Source: Verrucomicrobiota bacterium (GTDB taxonomy: Bacteria > Verrucomicrobiota > Verrucomicrobiia > Limisphaerales > UBA9464). Taken from it: a stretch of DNA of 64,000 bases. The translations under genes were made by a program, and so were the position numbers. How positions within the stretch are numbered: position 1 is the first letter of the stretch; each line of letters starts with the position of its first letter. The DNA lies in assembly GCA_017309115.1 (NCBI GenBank), contig JAFLEF010000029.1, positions 1 to 64,000 of the forward strand, read 5' to 3'. The notes beneath the pieces were generated by a model, which worked only from the letters and a program-made list of their open reading frames with translations, did not search any database and was not told where the DNA came from. Below are positions 400-5,721 of the stretch, piece after piece.

Positions 400-3282
400 T
401 TAGTCGTTCACTTGGTAGAACTGAGTGTCCCCACTCACCGGAAGCGTCACCGAGGTTTCGCTCGTGGTGGTTTCATCGGCCCACGTGCCCGTGCTCAGCG
501 AAGTGCGCTTCTGCACCGTGTACGGCGGGGTGCCACCCGACCAGGTCAGCTTGATCTGACCATCGACCAGCGAGGATTGCACCACCACCGGGACATTGAC
601 CGGAGGATAGACCACCGGGGTGTAAGCTCCGCCCGGGTTCATGATCCCGGAGTTGCCTAAGGCCGTCCAATCAACGGCCCAGTTGCCTGCGCTGGTAAAC
701 GCGCCGTAGTAGGCCGACGGCTGATAGAATCCGTTGGCGGGAGGCGTCAGGCTCGAGGTGTTGGCCGGGCTGCCCACCGCCGGGCGGGGATCCAGAACCA
801 GATCCTCTACGCGGGAGATGCCGCGGAGGAGGGGATTGACGTTGGTCGAGTTGTTATTGGCCGGGGCGAAGAGCGACGCCGGGTTGAAGTTGGGGACGGT
901 GAAGTTCCACCATAGGTTGTTTTGGAGCGTGGGATTCGCGCCCGTGGTGAAGGCGCCGCCGGTGATCGGTAGGCCGTTGAAGTCCGTGAAGATTCCGTTG
1001 TACAGCTTGGCCTGGGTGTAGGCCCGGAAGGTGAAGGCGTTGTTGCCCGAGCCCGCGCCAGCTCGTGCGCCGGCTCCGATGAGGGTCGAGTTGTAGATCT
1101 CCCAATTCGACACCGGAACGCCCAAACCGGTCACCCGATCCTGCGGCTCGCCGTTGATCTCCATTCCCTTTTCCACGCTGTTGGCCGGCTGAATGCCGAA
1201 CCAGAACTGGTTCTTGCCGCTGTAGCCTTGGTCTGCATCGAACTGCTCGTCCTGATTCAAGGCACTGACCAGATACCGCGTGTTCACCGTTCCGCCGAAG
1301 AACTCAAATCCGTCATCCGAGTTGGCGTACACTTCGACGTACTCCACCGTCGTTCCGCGTCCCACCCCGCACAGGGACAGACCGTTCACTTCCTTGTTCG
1401 ATTCCAGCAGCTTGCCACCGTGCCGGATCGACACATAGCGGATCACCCCGGAGGAGTCGTCGTCGTCCGCTCCACCGTAGCGGTTCACAAACTGTCCGCC
1501 CGGCCCCTGCGTGTCCGGCAACCCTTCGTAAATGTCATACTTCGGCGTCGCCGCGTCGCCCGCCGCATTCACCGCGTTGTTAATCCGCGCCTTGCCCAGG
1601 ACGATTATTCCACCCCACAGCTGCACGTCGTCCGGTCCCAAATCCGTCGGATCGGTGACGTCATCCTCTTCCGCCGTGAAAATGATCGGGTTCTGCGGCG
1701 TGCCTTCGGCGATCAACTTGCCGCCTTGGGAAATGAACAGATTGCCAAAGTTCCCGCTGGTCGTTCCCGGGACACCCTTGACCACCGTTCCCGGTTCGAT
1801 GCGCAGTTCGGCTCCGTCCACCACGTACACAAACCCCTGGAGCACGTACGTGTTGGTCGAGCTCCACACCGTCGTCCCAGTCAGATAACCCGCAGGAACG
1901 TTCACCACATTGGTCCGCGGCGGGAGGAAGCCGGCCGAATCCAGTGCCGTCCAATTGCGAAGCCACAGATTTTGTCCGTCGAACGCGCCGCGATATGGAG
2001 CGATCAAGTAGAACCCATCCCGCGGGGTCTCTTTGGCACCGCTCCAGGCGGGACTGTCGGGTTGAAGCAGCGGATTCAGACCGCCGTCCTCGGTGCGGGA
2101 GATACCGCGGAGGAGAGGATTAACGTTGGTCGAGTTGTTGTTGTCGGCGGCGAAGAGCGAGGCCGGGCTGAAGTTGGGGACGGTGAAGTTCCACCACAGG
2201 TTATTCTGCACCGTCGGATTGGCGCCGGTGGTGAAGGCGCCGCCGGTGACGGGCTGTCCGTTGAAGTCGGTGAAGATGCCGTTATACAGCTTGACCTGGG
2301 TATAGGCTCGGAACGTGAAGGCATTGTTGCCCGAGCCGGCTCCGGATCGGGCGCCGGCACCGATGAGGGTCGCGTTGTAGATCTCCCAGTTCGAGACCGG
2401 AACGCCCAGACCGGTCACCCGATCCTGCGGCTCGCCGTTGATCTCCATGCCCTTTTCCACGCTGTTGGCCGGCTGAATGCCAAACCAGAACTGGTTCTTG
2501 CCGCTGTAGCCTTGGTCTGCATCGAACTGTTCGTCTTGATTGAAGGCGCTGACCAAATACCGGGTGTTCACCGTTCCGCCGAAGAACTCAAATCCGTCAT
2601 CCGAGTTGGCGTACACTTCGACGTATTCCACCGTCGTTCCGCGTCCCACCCCGCAGAGGGACAGACCGTTCACTTCCTTGTTCGATTCCAGCAGCTTGCC
2701 ACCGTGCCGGATCGACACGTAGCGGATCACCCCGGAGGAGTCGTCGTCGTCCGCCCCACCGTAGCGGTTCACAAACTGTCCGCCCGGCCCCTGCGTGTCC
2801 GGCAACCCTTCGTAAATGTCATACTTCGGCGTCGCCGCGTCGCCCGCCGCATTCACCGCGTTGTTAATCCGCGCCTTGCCCAGGACGATTATTCCACCCC
2901 ACAGCTGCACGTCGTCCGGTCCCAAATCCGTCGGATCGGTGACGTCATCCTCTTCCGCCGTGAAAATGATCGGGTTCTGCGGCGTGCCTTCGGCGATCAA
3001 CTTGCCGCCTTGGGAAATGAACAGATTGCCAAAGTTCCCGCTGGTCGTTCCCGGAACACCCTTGACCACCGTTCCCGGTTCGATGCGCAGTTCGGCTCCG
3101 TCCACCACGTACACGAACCCTTGGAGCACGTACGTGTTCGTCGATTTCCAAACCGTCGTCCCAGTCAGATAACCCGCAGGAACGTTGATGGTGTCGGCCA
3201 AGGCCGGAGAAAGTGCGGCGAGCGCCGGCAGAAGTCCGGCCAAGAGCCGGGCGTTCCACCCTTTTGAATTCAATGTGTTCAT
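400..3282 (-). CDS. Secreted two-unit beta-helix-like protein (internal tandem duplication)
   Basis: 960 residues. A signal peptide (about residues 1-29, ending ALA) is followed by two nearly identical units of 428 residues, each starting at VPAGYLTGTTVW and carrying VDGAELRIEPGTVVKG and AEGTPQNPIIFTAEEDD. Such ladders are typical of extracellular right-handed beta-helix proteins. The last ~60 residues (VQSSLVDGQIKLTWSGGTPPYTVQKRTSL) look like a small C-terminal Ig/Fn3-type module that is common in exported Verrucomicrobia proteins. No catalytic motif is recognised, so the role is unknown and probably surface or extracellular. Monocistronic, with its own terminator. No clear ribosome site is seen; the start is chosen for the signal peptide. 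Confidence 0.85.
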   Translation of the reverse strand: MNTLNSKGWNARLLAGLLPALAALSPALADTINVPAGYLTGTTVWKSTNTYVLQGFVYVVDGAELRIEPGTVVKGVPGTTSGNFGNLFISQGGKLIAEGTPQNPIIFTAEEDDVTDPTDLGPDDVQLWGGIIVLGKARINNAVNAAGDAATPKYDIYEGLPDTQGPGGQFVNRYGGADDDDSSGVIRYVSIRHGGKLLESNKEVNGLSLCGVGRGTTVEYVEVYANSDDGFEFFGGTVNTRYLVSAFNQDEQFDADQGYSGKNQFWFGIQPANSVEKGMEINGEPQDRVTGLGVPVSNWEIYNATLIGAGARSGAGSGNNAFTFRAYTQVKLYNGIFTDFNGQPVTGGAFTTGANPTVQNNLWWNFTVPNFSPASLFAADNNNSTNVNPLLRGISRTEDGGLNPLLQPDSPAWSGAKETPRDGFYLIAPYRGAFDGQNLWLRNWTALDSAGFLPPRTNVVNVPAGYLTGTTVWSSTNTYVLQGFVYVVDGAELRIEPGTVVKGVPGTTSGNFGNLFISQGGKLIAEGTPQNPIIFTAEEDDVTDPTDLGPDDVQLWGGIIVLGKARINNAVNAAGDAATPKYDIYEGLPDTQGPGGQFVNRYGGADDDDSSGVIRYVSIRHGGKLLESNKEVNGLSLCGVGRGTTVEYVEVYANSDDGFEFFGGTVNTRYLVSALNQDEQFDADQGYSGKNQFWFGIQPANSVEKGMEINGEPQDRVTGLGVPVSNWEIYNSTLIGAGARAGAGSGNNAFTFRAYTQAKLYNGIFTDFNGLPITGGAFTTGANPTLQNNLWWNFTVPNFNPASLFAPANNNSTNVNPLLRGISRVEDLVLDPRPAVGSPANTSSLTPPANGFYQPSAYYGAFTSAGNWAVDWTALGNSGIMNPGGAYTPVVYPPVNVPVVVQSSLVDGQIKLTWSGGTPPYTVQKRTSLSTGTWADETTTSETSVTLPVSGDTQFYQVND
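788..1896 (-). repeat. Tandem repeat copy 2 (C-terminal unit of the beta-helix-like gene)
   Basis: This matches 2072-3180 at a constant offset of 1284 bases (428 codons). The part from about 1450 to 1790 is nearly base-for-base identical to its partner. Divergence is greater toward 788-1100. The pattern suggests a recent in-frame duplication or ongoing gene conversion. Confidence 0.9.
2072..3180 (-). repeat. Tandem repeat copy 1 (N-terminal unit of the beta-helix-like gene)
   Basis: Partner of 788-1896 at an offset of 1284 bases. The upstream boundary of the duplicated block is sharp at the codons for PAGYLTG, just after the signal peptide (around 3180). Confidence 0.9.
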
Positions 3283-3453
3283 CGGTATTGATTCGTCGGA
3301 TGCCGCGATCGAGGACCTCCCTGGATTAGGGCATCTCCGGAACCCCAGACGGATGGGGGGACGGCGCTACGAACCAATGTCTGCCGTGTTACATGACGGC
3401 AACGATGTGGGGAGTCTGGTCCGTGATTATGAGGGATTCTGGTCCCCAAGAAG

Positions 3454-3574
3454 GGCGTCGACAAGAGATGGGAAACAGGACCAACGCGCTAATTGCGCTA
3501 CGGGCCAAGTTTATCGGCCCGACCGGATTCTCACCGGCAACCTTTGGCGTGTAGTTTCCCGGGCATTCGACGCC
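3454..3574 (-). ncRNA. Y-RNA-like element 4, with permuted tRNA-like domain
   Basis: Minus-strand RNA of 121 nt. The outer stem GGCGUCGA (3567-3574) pairs perfectly with UCGACGCC (3454-3461). An asymmetric internal loop has AUGCCC on the 5' side and AUCUCUUG on the 3' side. The inner stem GGGAAA/UUUCCC is 3555-3560 with 3470-3475. The domain above it reads, in order: T-arm-like hairpin (3522-3538, 5-bp stem, 7-nt loop), an acceptor-like 8-bp stem (3514-3521 with 3501-3508, two non-Watson-Crick or wobble positions at most) closed by a 5-nt loop, the dinucleotide UA, then a D-arm-like hairpin (3486-3498, GCGC stems). This is the order of a tRNA opened at the anticodon and closed at the acceptor. 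It resembles YrlA-type bacterial Y RNAs. The T-loop lacks the canonical UUCRA. Confidence 0.8.
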
Positions 3575-3610
3575 GGAAAGAGGTGCCCGGATGCATCCGA
3601 GCGGCGTGGT

Positions 3611-3623
3611 CTCCCGAAGGGAG
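3611..3623 (-). other. Small hairpin flanking Y-like element 3 (downstream side)
   Basis: CUCCC and GGGAG arms enclose UUC on the minus strand. Together with 3681-3694 it brackets the compact element 3 and overlaps the end of its outer stem. It may be a processing signal or an alternative fold. Confidence 0.5.
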
Positions 3624-3685
3624 AGTCGACGAGGGTTGATCGAGACGGACAGTTTTGTATGTAGTCTCGGTCGCATTCGACTCCC
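3619..3685 (-). ncRNA. Y-RNA-like element 3, compact hairpin
   Basis: Minus-strand RNA of about 61-67 nt. The outer stem GAGUCGA (3677-3683) pairs with UCGACUC (3623-3629). The internal loop keeps the AUGC (5') and CUCG (3') features of the other elements. The inner stem CGAGAC/GUCUCG is 3664-3669 with 3641-3646. The apical loop (3647-3663) begins UACAU and ends UGUCC, as in element 1. There is no tRNA-like insert. The shared words GAAUGC and GACUACA tie it to the other three elements. Confidence 0.72.
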
Positions 3686-3694
3686 ACAAGGGAG
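3681..3694 (-). other. Small hairpin flanking Y-like element 3 (upstream side)
   Basis: CUCCC and GGGAG arms enclose UUGU on the minus strand. It shares three bases with the 5' arm of element 3, so this hairpin and the full outer stem of element 3 compete. It mirrors the hairpin at 3611-3623. Confidence 0.5.
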
Positions 3695-3695
3695 A

Positions 3696-3824
3696 AGCAA
3701 CGACAAGGGGTGGGAAACGTTTTCCAATGCTCTGATGGTTGAGCTACGGAACGGCGTTCACCGTCCCGGCCGGAGTTTCACCGGCAACCTTTGGAGTCAT
3801 GTAGTTCCCCGGGCATTCGTCGCC
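3696..3824 (-). ncRNA. Y-RNA-like element 2, with permuted tRNA-like domain
   Basis: Minus-strand RNA of about 128 nt. The outer stem GCGACGA (3817-3823) pairs with UCGUUGC (3697-3703) with one G-U. The internal loop again has AUGCCC versus ACCCCUUG. The inner stem GGGGAAC/GUUUCCC is 3804-3810 with 3712-3718. Above it lie a T-arm-like hairpin (3769-3785, GCCGG/CCGGC, 7-nt loop), an acceptor-like stem (3761-3768 with 3747-3754, closed by a 6-nt loop), UA, and a D-arm-like hairpin (3729-3744, GCUC/GAGC with an 8-nt loop). The acceptor-to-D segment reads exactly like the 5' end of an ordinary tRNA. Most paired positions differ from element 4 but still pair, which argues for selection on the fold. 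Confidence 0.82.
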
Positions 3825-3834
3825 AGAGTGAGTT

Positions 3835-3902
3835 GGGGCCGACAAGGTCGAGTTAGTTGAGACGGACATTTAACAGATGTAGTCCCAATGGCATTCAGCC
3901 CC
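3835..3902 (-). ncRNA. Y-RNA-like element 1, compact hairpin
   Basis: Minus-strand RNA of 68 nt, first of the array after the rsr stop codon. The outer stem GGGGCUGA (3895-3902) pairs with UCGGCCCC (3835-3842), with one U-G. The internal loop has AUGCCA on the 5' side and a purine/pyrimidine-mixed 3' side ending CCUUG. The inner stem UUGGGAC/GUCUCAA is 3882-3888 with 3857-3863. The apical loop starts UACAU and ends UGUCC. There is no tRNA-like domain. The internal-loop words are shared with elements 2-4 and probably mark the Rsr-binding site, by analogy with the Ro-binding stem of known Y RNAs. Confidence 0.75.
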
Positions 3903-3919
3903 GAAAATTGGTTTCAAAC

Positions 3920-3950
3920 GGGCCGGCGACGACGGCATCGCCGCCGGCCC
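3920..3950 (-). other. Strong hairpin between rsr and the Y-like array
   Basis: A 9-bp perfect GC stem (3920-3928 with 3942-3950) lies 20 bases after the rsr stop codon. On the minus strand it is followed by GTTTGAAACC, with no T run, so it is a poor intrinsic terminator. It may protect the mRNA 3' end, slow transcription or mark a processing point between mRNA and Y RNAs. Confidence 0.6.
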
Positions 3951-3969
3951 TTACATATCCTCTCCGACA

Positions 3970-5523
3970 TTACAACGCCTGAGATTCGATCAAGCCGACC
4001 CAGTGATCGGCGTGGAGTTCGCCCTGGGCGAACAGCGACAGGATTTCGAACACCGAGTCCGAGAATCCCCCGACATTCAGGATGTCGGCGCGTTCCCGAG
4101 CCTGGGTCGAGCCATACGGCTGGAGATCCAGGCAGACCAGACGCGCCCGCGGATTGCGCCGACGGAAGGTCTCCCATTCCGCCTGGGTCGCGGTGCTGCG
4201 GCCTCCGCCCTCGGCGTCGACCCAGCTCATGTTGTCCGAGACCATGACCACCAAGTCCGCCTCGGCCCGCTCCTGATTCAGCCAGCGGAACGGAGCGCTG
4301 CAGTTGGTCCCACCGCTGGGCAGTTGGGCCAGGACCTGGGCGTTGGCCAGAACGGTGTTCCGCGCCTTAAGCTTCACCGGAACCACGTCGTCCGAGAACG
4401 GCAGAACCAGCGTTTGCGGATTCTTCCGCACCAGAGCAGCCGCCACCAGTGCCGCCACATCCAGACAACGAACGGCCGTGGTGCTGCCCCGCCGATGACC
4501 CGTGACCGGTGAGAGCATCGACCCGGATACGTCCGGGCAGACCACCACCCGGCCCTGGATCACGGGCACGTTGGCCAGCGCGACTTCCATCGCTTGCTGC
4601 AAGGCATTCCGAACTTCGCCCGGAACACCCTCGACTGCCTGCATGTGGGCCATCATCAGCTGATACGGGAACACCCGCGCCGACCGGATCGCCTCCGGAT
4701 CCCGCAAGCGCTCCACGATCTGGAGCGTCAGCTTGCGGTTCGCGAACACGCCGTGACGGGCAAACGTGTTCAGATTCATCCGGGTCATTTGCCATGGAGC
4801 TCGCCGGGCGATGGCCATCCAGTCCGTCTCGCTCAGGGTCAACGAGGTCAGCATCTGGAACGGCACGTCGGGTACCTGCGTGGTTTCCCCGCGCTTGAAG
4901 GCCTCGAACTGTCGGACGCACTCCGGCAGCGCCGCGGCGTCATAGGGCCGGTTCAACAGCCATCCGTACAACGCCGCCCGAGAAGGAGTCGACGGCCGCG
5001 GATGCACCATCTTTACGATGTCCGCGAGGGACGGGTTCTGCCCGACCGAGGCCCGGAACAGCTGCTCATCCGTCCGGGATTCCAGCCACTGAAGCACCAG
5101 CTTCTTCGGCACCGTTCCCAGCGACTTCCGAGCGACGGCACCGGAGCGGAGAATCTGCACGAAGTTCCGGACCATTCGTCCGTCATCGCAGACCCGCGGG
5201 AACACCGCCTTCAGATGCGCCGGGCTCAGTACGCTCAGCGCGGCGCACAGCAGGGCGGGCATGTCCTTCATGTGGCCTTGGGTCCGGCTGAAGAGAGCGA
5301 CCTTCGCGGTGAACTCCGGTCCGACTGCACTGGCCAGTTCGAGCACCCGCTCCAGCTGGGTTTCAGCGGTCGCGTAGAAGGTGCTGTTCAGACAACCGGT
5401 GACGGCGTACTGCGCGAGCGCCTGCTTCGGCGGGAGAGCGTAAGCCGGTCCGCCGGCTTCGTTGACCGTGTCGGTCGGGGTCAGGGCCCGGAGGAGGCTC
5501 GAGAATAATGTGGGGTTCGCCAT
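3970..5523 (-). CDS. rsr: Ro60-family RNA-binding protein Rsr (TROVE + vWA)
   Basis: 517 residues. Orthologue of the Ro autoantigen: an N-terminal TROVE domain (about 1-325, all-helical HEAT-like ring that holds misfolded or single-stranded RNA ends and binds Y RNA on its outer face) and a C-terminal vWA domain (about 325-517) with an intact MIDAS: DVSGSM near 331-336, a Thr in GGTNCS near 406, and SD near 429-430. Start chosen at 5523 because AAGGA lies 7 bases upstream and the sigma-54 promoter at 5556-5573 excludes the longer reading from 5586. Bacterial Rsr-Y RNA complexes aid rRNA maturation and RNA decay with PNPase and are often induced by damage. Four Y-RNA-like elements follow directly downstream on the same strand. 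No rtcB or PNPase gene is in view. Confidence 0.95.
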   Translation of the reverse strand: MANPTLFSSLLRALTPTDTVNEAGGPAYALPPKQALAQYAVTGCLNSTFYATAETQLERVLELASAVGPEFTAKVALFSRTQGHMKDMPALLCAALSVLSPAHLKAVFPRVCDDGRMVRNFVQILRSGAVARKSLGTVPKKLVLQWLESRTDEQLFRASVGQNPSLADIVKMVHPRPSTPSRAALYGWLLNRPYDAAALPECVRQFEAFKRGETTQVPDVPFQMLTSLTLSETDWMAIARRAPWQMTRMNLNTFARHGVFANRKLTLQIVERLRDPEAIRSARVFPYQLMMAHMQAVEGVPGEVRNALQQAMEVALANVPVIQGRVVVCPDVSGSMLSPVTGHRRGSTTAVRCLDVAALVAAALVRKNPQTLVLPFSDDVVPVKLKARNTVLANAQVLAQLPSGGTNCSAPFRWLNQERAEADLVVMVSDNMSWVDAEGGGRSTATQAEWETFRRRNPRARLVCLDLQPYGSTQARERADILNVGGFSDSVFEILSLFAQGELHADHWVGLIESQAL

Positions 5524-5555
5524 AACGATCCTTTTCGATGCGTTCGGGAACCTGA

Positions 5556-5573
5556 TTGCACCCCGCGTGCCAG
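5556..5573 (-). promoter_or_regulatory. Sigma-54 (-24/-12) promoter of rsr
   Basis: The minus strand reads CTGGCACGCGGGGTGCAA. Against the consensus YTGGCACGNNNNTTGCW it has one mismatch (T to G in the -12 element), and the GG and GC doublets are 10 bases apart as required. The predicted transcript starts near 5546, giving a leader of about 23 nt that contains the AAGGA ribosome site of rsr. Confidence 0.8.
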
Positions 5574-5662
5574 GCGATTGAATCACCTATGGAAGCACTG
5601 CCTATCAACGCTTTAGGCGGGAATCTTCGATCCACACAGGTCAGCGATCGACGAAAGCGTTC

Positions 5663-5693
5663 GCTTATCCGCGGCAACCTTGGCTTATCCGCG
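5663..5693 (-). promoter_or_regulatory. Pair of direct repeats, candidate activator sites for rsr
   Basis: The 11-base word CGCGGATAAGC occurs twice on the minus strand (5683-5693 and 5663-5673), with start points exactly 20 bases apart, about two helical turns. They lie roughly 115-150 bases upstream of the predicted transcription start. That is the usual place for enhancer-binding-protein sites of sigma-54 promoters. Confidence 0.6.
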
Positions 5694-5721
5694 AGGCAGT
5701 TTCACGGATGACCAGTCGCGC

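Follow-up and report, generated by a model that had tools for sequence, protein, structure and literature searches.

In Salmonella, as described in the available portions of PMC7790460, the operon rsr-yrlBA-rtcBA carries rsr followed by the Y RNAs YrlB and then YrlA. In Deinococcus, according to the available portions of PMC4726728 and PMC8394870, which describe Rsr binding, tethering and gating, a Y RNA tethers Rsr to PNPase. The locus described here lies at 3454–5523 of a 64,000-nucleotide stretch of DNA from a Verrucomicrobiota bacterium, referred to below in its entirety as the window. We consider it probable (about 0.72) that we are dealing with an rsr-Y RNA locus whose array has re-expanded and supplies Rsr with several ligands, some serving as caps and others as tethers. 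At the level of sequence, its four RNAs have the same covarying outer stem, two of them with a tRNA-like domain and two without one. The features are as follows.

3973..5523, minus strand: rsr, encoding a 517-residue Ro60-family protein (TROVE + vWA; Pfam domains above the curated cut-offs)
3920..3950, minus strand: GC-rich hairpin without a U tract, between the rsr stop and E1 (direct reading of the sequence)
3835..3902, minus strand: E1, compact Y RNA (R3 match, 55.4 bits, E 2.8e-14; fold)
3696..3824, minus strand: E2, YrlA-type with a permuted-tRNA domain (Rfam YrlA 47.8 bits at 3694-3823; R2 94.0 bits)
3622..3684, minus strand: E3, compact Y RNA (R3 match, 54.4 bits, E 6e-14)
3454..3574, minus strand: E4, YrlA-type, paralogue of E2 (Rfam YrlA 57.6 bits at 3452-3573; R2 92.2 bits)

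The product of rsr is of the Ro60 type, with scores of 69.7 bits for vWA_Ro60 (cut-off 27.7) and 31.9 for TROVE (cut-off 23) in Pfam. In its DVSGS motif, which we take to be the metal-site motif, Asp331, Ser333, and Ser335 are invariant in ten aligned sequences, including that of the window. An alternative, longer frame of this gene has a GTG start at 5586. The four Y-RNA-like elements, E1–E4, follow downstream on the same (minus) strand, E1 beginning 68 bases after the end of the stop codon, so that the array is encoded beside rsr as is expected of bacterial Y RNAs. The gap between rsr and the first Y RNA contains a helix of at least eight uninterrupted pairs in 47 of the 52 loci in which this gap measures 40–300 bases (window included), compared to 25.6 expected from shuffles. 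The original prediction of a Ro60-family gene with TROVE and vWA domains is thus upheld by both Pfam matches, and that of four Y-RNA-like RNAs at this place on the rsr strand is upheld by the folds and covariance matches. Their common plan is also as predicted, consisting of an outer stem, an internal loop that bears AAUGC in its 5' strand and CUUG or CUCG in its 3' strand, an inner stem, and ACUACA, and so is the alternation of two types, compact (E1, E3) and tRNA-like (E2, E4).

Elements E2 and E4 align end to end with the Rfam family YrlA (RF02553) on the minus strand (E 2.1e-8 and 3e-11, respectively), with which they share the outer and inner stems, the internal loop with AAUGC, ACUAC, a T arm, an acceptor-like stem, a D arm, and adjacency to rsr. 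They differ from it in that their scores (47.8 and 57.6) do not reach the gathering score of 69, and in the loss of UC from the T loop and GG from the D loop. The domain has the architecture of a tRNA severed in its anticodon arm and joined up again, running through the T arm, the acceptor 3' strand, a short loop, the acceptor 5' strand, and the D arm. In E2, the acceptor-like stem comprises 7 bp, the T loop reads UGAAACU, and the D loop AACCAUCA; the corresponding loops of E4 are UGAGAAU and AAUUA. The YrlA-type model R2, whose training rows include both elements, recovers them in their own genome at E ≤ 1e-9. A third match to the Rfam YrlA model in this genome (contig C55, 29.7 bits) is, by sequence reading, a pair of adjacent tRNA genes. 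Among the R2 matches listed, a few are evident tRNA genes. From the T arm through the acceptor 3' strand and the loop to the acceptor 5' strand, the parts follow one another as in the permuted tmRNA (RF04321), which gave no match in window positions 3430-3970 at E up to 10; a relative, L044, matches it weakly (20.8 bits, E 0.077), far under the cut-off of 47.

The compact elements were recognized with R3, a covariance model of the compact class built from 38 sequences, with the window excluded from training. Besides E1 and E3, R3 yields a single further hit in the window when E values as high as 10 are admitted (E = 1), and in the whole genome (7.5 Mb, E ≤ 0.001, searched with stricter filters than the window) it finds only E1 (3.3e-12) and E3 (7.1e-12). 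The class to which they belong is broad and occurs in several phyla. E1 and E3 resemble YrlB (RF02565, counted as compact from the 78-position model of Rfam) in plan, in size class, and in the first place after rsr, as in rsr-yrlBA. Their assignment to that family was nevertheless rejected, as no Rfam family, YrlB included, matched either element in a search of 541 bases with E values up to 10. No YrlB match was obtained in E. coli genomes either, and a compact element of L044 matches YrlB with an E of 3.5e-4 and 31.7 bits (cut-off 97). Compared with rsr-yrlBA-rtcBA, as far as that operon is described in the available portions of its source, the window retains the order of rsr, compact RNA, and tRNA-like RNA, whereas the compact and tRNA-like pair is present twice and no rtcB adjoins it, a gene that accompanies 46 of the 63 related loci.

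Pairing is maintained in relatives while the paired bases change, again as predicted. In the compact class, 96.5% of cells are paired, compared to 73.6% in shuffles, and both partners are altered in 15 of 18 pairs; without the window, the values are 97.1% and 76.0%. In the YrlA class, 98.5% are paired, compared to 76.6% in shuffles, and 26 of 33 pairs are changed on both sides. Selection of the aligned rows made use of the outer stem (and, in the YrlA class, of the T arm and acceptor), but not of the inner stem, which in the compact class is 92.9% paired, with changes on both sides in six of its eight pairs. Matches to R2 are present in 16 of 146 related genomes, and 14 of those 16 are among the 20 genomes with an Rsr match (the genome of the window being counted), leaving two with a YrlA-type match and no Rsr match (G116 and G124) and six with the reverse. 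All 283 R1 matches lie on the rsr strand, and a single R2 match among those listed lies on the opposite strand (L092:11683-11816, 31.0 bits).

The sample of relatives comprised the best 80 of 390 loci. Among the matches listed, the commonest number of Y RNAs in the 76 loci of the subfamily that have 1 kb or more of sequence downstream of the gene is four (26 loci), with a range of 0–7 and with five to seven elements in 22 loci. Ten further Verrucomicrobiota loci carry 2–8 elements, at least four in nine of them and eight in the largest. Four elements cannot therefore be considered a peculiarity of this genome, as had been supposed; of the proposal of an undescribed variation of the Rsr system, the array itself stands, but its novelty is diminished, since arrays are usual in this branch of the Ro60 family. 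The element lists combine the R1 and R2 matches listed, with 22 further R2 rows left out; dropped from them were three R2 rows (L058:3758, L058:7724, and L092:11683, the last at 31 bits), two R1 rows (L101:7636 and L026:6999, E 0.01-0.04), and L005–L008, which represent the same places as L024, L025, L027, and L028. Three upstream elements that resemble tRNA genes (L067:3729, L041:4861, L093:5044), filed in neither class, are outside these downstream counts.

Elements were classed by score and length as compact (R1 match of at most 84 bases), YrlA-type (R2 of at least about 62 bits), or other. With this classification, in which some elements are surely misfiled (the first element of L072, filed as compact, holds a T arm), a compact element is first in 51 of 72 arrays (mean of 5000 shuffles 20.2, highest 36) and 52 of the 72 end with a YrlA-type element (29.4 on average in the shuffles, 43 at most). 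The order, with compact elements first and tRNA-like elements last, is conserved.

Of 68 well-parsed elements, 53 were aligned together with E2 and E4. In a phylogenetic tree, E2 and E4 are sisters (100/94) and fall within a group (93/93) that also holds the third elements of L024, from the same genus, and of L025. The branch of E4 is longer than that of E2 (0.27 and 0.064, in a tree whose bootstrap had not settled). For E1 and E3 the mutual value is 0.61, compared to 0.71 and 0.67 with their best other counterparts, so that they are no closer to each other than to these. Duplication of a whole compact and YrlA unit is supported for E2/E4 and unsupported for E1/E3; the alternation is thus in part the result of duplication of one tRNA-like element.

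The feature that sets the window apart, on which the original prediction was silent, is the joint loss of the elbow signature, as neither E2 nor E4 has UC in the T loop or GG in the D loop. Among the matches listed, 114 of 136 YrlA-type elements could be parsed (first set), and of these 105 keep UC and 100 keep GG. GG is absent in eight of the nine elements without UC, compared to six of the 105 with it. These losses, together with the long branch of E4 as a copy of E2, could be taken to indicate that E2–E4 are decaying duplicates and that only one or two of the four elements are functional. This seems unlikely to us, since the main stems of E2–E4 still close in the predicted folds and the score of E3 nearly equals that of E1; moreover, the coupling of both losses across lineages (8/9) fits a contact that was dispensed with better than random decay. 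Since the bases of the D-loop/T-loop contact are lost, the tRNA-like domain in this lineage would be a scaffold rather than a substrate for enzymes that require the tRNA elbow.

Other tRNA signatures vary among the relatives. The triplet CCA is found exactly at positions 74-76 in 11 of 113 elements of the first set and in 13 of 52 of a second set after removal of duplicate loci, compared to 1 in 64 expected (p = 2e-6 and 1e-12, values that are too small because related loci were treated as independent), while four other offsets give 0 to 4. The second set comprised 106 R2 matches, of which 57 were parsed and distinct, and 54 rows remained after removal of duplicates (L104 is identical to L086 of the first set, and seven viral contigs repeat others). 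The pair G3:U70 is present in 25 of the 114 elements of the first set, accompanied by A73 in 24 of 25 (29 of 89 otherwise) and by G1:C72 and G2:C71 in all 25 (15 of 89 others). This excess was not replicated in the second set, with G3:U70 in 4 of 54 rows (4 of 57 before duplicate removal) and A73 in two of these four, compared to 16 of the 50 others. Alanine identity, strong in the first set, is thus not claimed for the family. In E2, the 3:70 pair is U:A and position 73 is G, and in E4 they are G:C and A, so that the alanine set is absent from both.

As some elements retain a properly placed CCA and, in several phyla, G3:U70 with A73, some YrlA-type RNAs of relatives, E2 and E4 excluded, could be processed like a permuted tmRNA, with the loop cut, a CCA end generated, and alanine attached. 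We regard this as quite improbable: apart from the failure of the G3:U70 excess in the second set, descent from a captured tRNA-Ala would yield the same pattern, most elements have no encoded CCA, and the 3' end is internal unless the loop is cut.

A scan of 3280-5700 found no sigma-70-like promoter, and the single terminator-like match there compares with 2.1 expected by chance. The fraction of loci with an rtcB-like gene (46/63) refers to relatives with at least 3 kb downstream, and all six of the frames that were checked are Pfam RtcB. No tblastn match to rtcB at E ≤ 1e-10 is present in the window, hence none beside the array, and the rtcB of the same genome is on contig C24.

The variety of elements points to a single protein ring that works with several different RNA adaptors. 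On the Rsr ring, every Y RNA of an array might present its own piece of tRNA, either linking one protein to several partners or providing mimics that rival tRNA as targets of RNA-damaging nucleases, the adjoining RtcB then carrying out repair. The odds are in our view clearly against this reading, possible as it is. The relatives provide compact elements, T-arm forms with no recognized D arm, YrlA-type elements, forms attached by way of the D stem (12 in the alignment), and elements joined on the acceptor side, with L060 folding into D, anticodon-like, and T hairpins; the frequent rtcB-like gene fits as well. In the available portions of PMC7790460, the tRNA-like domain of YrlA is proposed as a competitive inhibitor of an anticodon nuclease, and fragments of Salmonella YrlA are described as not detected, a result that agrees with competition without proving it. 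The window, however, has only two of these forms, mimics that lack the elbow, and no adjacent rtcB.

We can speculate further that the arrays of this Rsr subfamily are display sets, in which the Rsr-side stem stays constant and the translation-RNA piece attached to it can be exchanged, although we think it rather unlikely that the proposal holds. The pieces would be nothing at all (compact); the top half of a tRNA; a tRNA cut open in its anticodon arm (YrlA); a cloverleaf resembling tRNA that is attached by its D stem and has an anticodon-arm-like hairpin; a tRNA joined on the acceptor side; and, once, a fragment of 23S rRNA. On this view, some of the tRNA-like pieces in relatives could also undergo the loop cleavage and charging considered above. 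The window would then represent a derived state, in which the E2 type has been doubled and the elbow lost.

In the preferred reading, that of a re-expanded array of caps and tethers, E1–E4 would be transcribed together with rsr or just after it, and the outer stem of each would bind the Rsr ring. The compact E1 and E3 would cap the ring in a minimal way, and E2 and E4, with their tRNA-like domain, may offer a further surface by which a partner is tethered or gated, by analogy with the Y RNA of Deinococcus. The locus shares with RYPER (Rsr, Y RNA, and PNPase of Deinococcus radiodurans), as described in the available portions of PMC4726728 and PMC8394870, an Rsr and a Y RNA built of a stem plus an effector part; it differs in having several Y RNAs, of two kinds.

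A constant Rsr-side stem combined with a variable other end provides natural variants for assigning a function to each end, and the arrays would thereby serve the wider question of the purpose of bacterial Y RNAs. Relatives that carry such arrays include Chthoniobacter flavus Ellin428 (L032), Adhaeretor mobilis HG15A2 (L049), and Labrys okinawensis (L096), which have strain names and are therefore probably in culture. The arrays of L032 and L049 both run from a compact element through one classed as other to two YrlA-type elements, and CCA or G3:U70 is borne by L049:9859-10054 of Adhaeretor and L096:10221-10347 of Labrys. If the CCA and alanine signs seen in some of the relatives do mean charging, Y RNAs would form an unexpected link between RNA quality control and the translation machinery.

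Directly downstream of rsr, within 450 bases and starting 68 bases past its stop codon, four RNA-like elements lie on the same strand as the gene.

3973-5523, minus strand: rsr, with Ro60 vWA and TROVE domains above cut-off
3835-3902, minus strand: E1, compact Y-RNA-like element
3696-3824, minus strand: E2, YrlA-type (permuted-tRNA-like) element
3622-3684, minus strand: E3, compact Y-RNA-like element
3454-3574, minus strand: E4, YrlA-type element

The original prediction of an rsr gene followed by four Y-RNA-like elements on one strand was borne out by these domains and by model matches to all four elements. The Rfam YrlA family matches E2 (47.8 bits, E 2e-8) and E4 (57.6 bits, E 3e-11) from end to end, and both matches are significant although they do not reach the gathering score of 69. 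In Rfam, neither E1 nor E3 has a match at E up to 10. By eye, a 960-aa protein encoded at 400-3282 of the window contains two long, closely similar stretches; it matched no Pfam family at E <= 0.001.

Pairing in both classes was counted in alignments that include the window elements. Among 51 compact elements, 96.5% of the cells are paired, compared to 73.6% in shuffles, with both sides changed in 15 of the 18 pairs and a covariation of 0.507 (at most 0.094 when slid). The compact rows were picked by the outer stem; the inner stem, which played no part in picking, is 92.9% paired, with both-side changes in 6/8 pairs. A compact model built from 38 rows, with E1 and E3 excluded, scores these two at 55.4 and 54.4 bits, respectively, and finds no other match in their own genome at E <= 0.001. 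In the 55 YrlA-type rows, 98.5% of the cells pair versus 76.6%, a percentage biased upward for the T arm and acceptor because both were used in picking rows, and both sides changed in 26 of the 33 pairs. The proposal that pairing is kept while paired positions change thus holds for both classes. The YrlA-type layout is that of a permuted tRNA: a T arm of 5 bp leads directly into an acceptor-like stem of 7 bp, after which commonly come UA and a D stem of 4 bp.

The loci used for comparison came from searching bacterial genomes with an alignment built from seven close Rsr proteins. Of the 390 relatives, the best 80 were used; they include Verrucomicrobiota, Acidobacteriota, Planctomycetota, Myxococcota and Pseudomonadota, among others, and together with the window and loci L009 and L010 form a set of 83, 76 of which have at least 1 kb after rsr. 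Downstream of rsr, these 76 carry no element in 3 loci, one in 1, two in 11, three in 13, four in 26, five in 13, six in 5 and seven in 4. Searching 387 whole genomes from the phylum added 11 rsr loci, one a repeat of L086; the remaining ten have 2 to 8 elements each, and 9 of them at least four. Around more distant Rsr proteins (11 loci, L013-L023, ~1.5 kb flank), one to three elements were found in six loci and none in five. Viral contigs with rsr carry at least one Y RNA element in 31/49 cases, or 26/42 and up to 8 elements with repeats removed (L115-L163). The bacterial locus L110 (1-1407) has at least 8, one match running off the end of the retrieved sequence. All 283 matches of the Y RNA model R1 lie on the strand of rsr; one weak match on the opposite strand is among the YrlA-type matches listed. 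A strong YrlA-type match occurs in 16 of 146 related genomes. An Rsr match occurs in 20, and these include 14 of the 16; the other two are G116 and G124. Plasmids of Rhizobium, Methylosinus and others also carry Rsr relatives (60 records; the 40 listed are H21-H60).

The order of elements is conserved. Of the 72 arrays with at least two elements, compared with 5000 shuffles, 51 begin with a compact element (20.2 on average in the shuffles, 36 at most) and 52 end with a YrlA-type one (29.4 on average, 43 at most). Between rsr and the array, 47 of the 52 loci with a 40-300-base gap have a hairpin of 8 pairs or more, versus 25.6 in shuffles. Of the 63 loci with 3 kb or more of downstream sequence, 46 hold an rtcB-like gene within the fetched locus, and all six such frames put to Pfam were RtcB. 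The window, one of the 63, has no rtcB-like gene at the locus; a different contig of its genome carries rtcB.

In a tree of 55 YrlA-type elements, the bootstrap of which was unsettled, E2 and E4 are sisters (support 100/94), the branch of E4 being the longer. They nest with the third elements of L024, from the same genus, and L025 (93/93), and this group joins elements of L028, L029, L031 and L032 (92/98). L024 and L025 have a second YrlA-type kind (100/99 with L026) that is absent from the window. The simplest reading of these sequences is that the window lineage lost one YrlA-type kind and doubled the other. No comparable duplication could be shown for the compact pair E1/E3.

E2 and E4 also stand apart in the elbow, the D-loop/T-loop contact of tRNA. 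Among the 114 parsed YrlA-type elements, 105 have UC in the T loop and 100 have GG in the D loop; both window elements have neither. GG is absent in 8 of the 9 elements without UC versus 6 of the 105 with it (p 5e-8, with relatives counted as independent). In a second set (L013-L023 and L104-L163), the single element without UC also has no GG, and GG is absent in three with UC. This joint absence across lineages supports a real loop-loop contact in the family, which would have been lost as a unit in the window.

Other tRNA-like features vary among relatives. CCA stands at the exact tRNA position in 11/113 YrlA-type elements and, in the second set, in 13/52 without duplicate loci (13/55 before), against a chance expectation of 1 in 64. 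A G3:U70 pair is present in 25/114 elements, with A73 in 24 of these 25 versus 29 of the other 89; the combination is the alanine identity set. In the second set G3:U70 is not enriched (4/54, A73 in 2/4), so it marks some lineages only. Further forms include one that has a T arm but in which no D arm was recognised, and a D-stem-joined class, a tRNA-like cloverleaf with a hairpin in the place of the anticodon arm (12 aligned, most folding so individually). In the acceptor-side form, the tRNA parts are unpermuted and the Y stem replaces the acceptor.

D-stem-joined Y RNAs, by alignment and for most also by their own folds: L024:2628-2751, L028:9731-9857, L029:3818-3943, L031:9719-9843, L009:3237-3362, L041:3611-3741, L093:4874-5004, L088:10103-10226, L096:9939-10062, L094:6436-6560, L100:9935-10059
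D-stem-joined Y RNA, placed by alignment and not by its own fold: L035:8914-9057
Acidobacterial acceptor-side-joined Y RNAs: L060:9836-9952, L062:4474-4590, L042:2029-2145 (placed without a fold)
Acidobacterial Y RNAs, T arm not recognised: L037:9848-9972, L047:9838-9966, L050:9903-10009, L041:5373-5481, L057:7821-7936, L093:5441-5556

L060 folds as the acceptor-side form; L062 is similar in sequence with a different lowest-energy fold. The hairpin loop of L060 (9836-9952) reads CUUGAAA, resembling a Ser-UGA anticodon loop. Several acidobacterial Y RNAs without a recognised T arm share a GCCUCG motif. In a single case, L044:10296-10499, the loop resembles a conserved 23S rRNA stretch (90.6% identity over 32 bases with the 23S rRNA of E. 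coli, E 0.04; 90% over 29 bases with a site in the genome that holds the window, E 4.5e-4).

The window locus is a variant of the known rsr-yrlBA kind of system. A literature search by title and abstract start, outside which the main Y RNA papers fell, found no paper describing Y RNA arrays, and we do not claim them as previously unreported. Published work describes binding of the Y RNA lower stem by Rsr in Deinococcus and Salmonella, and tethering of PNPase and gating of substrates by Y RNA in Deinococcus (PMC4726728, PMC8394870); it describes YrlA as having D, T and acceptor arms and as a substrate of two tRNA-modifying enzymes (PMC4726728, PMC8394870, PMC7790460). By analogy, E1-E4 are most likely four putative Rsr ligands, two of which would serve as minimal caps and two as scaffolds. 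Because the elbow bases are missing from the window's scaffolds, elbow-reading enzymes are predicted to be inactive on them.
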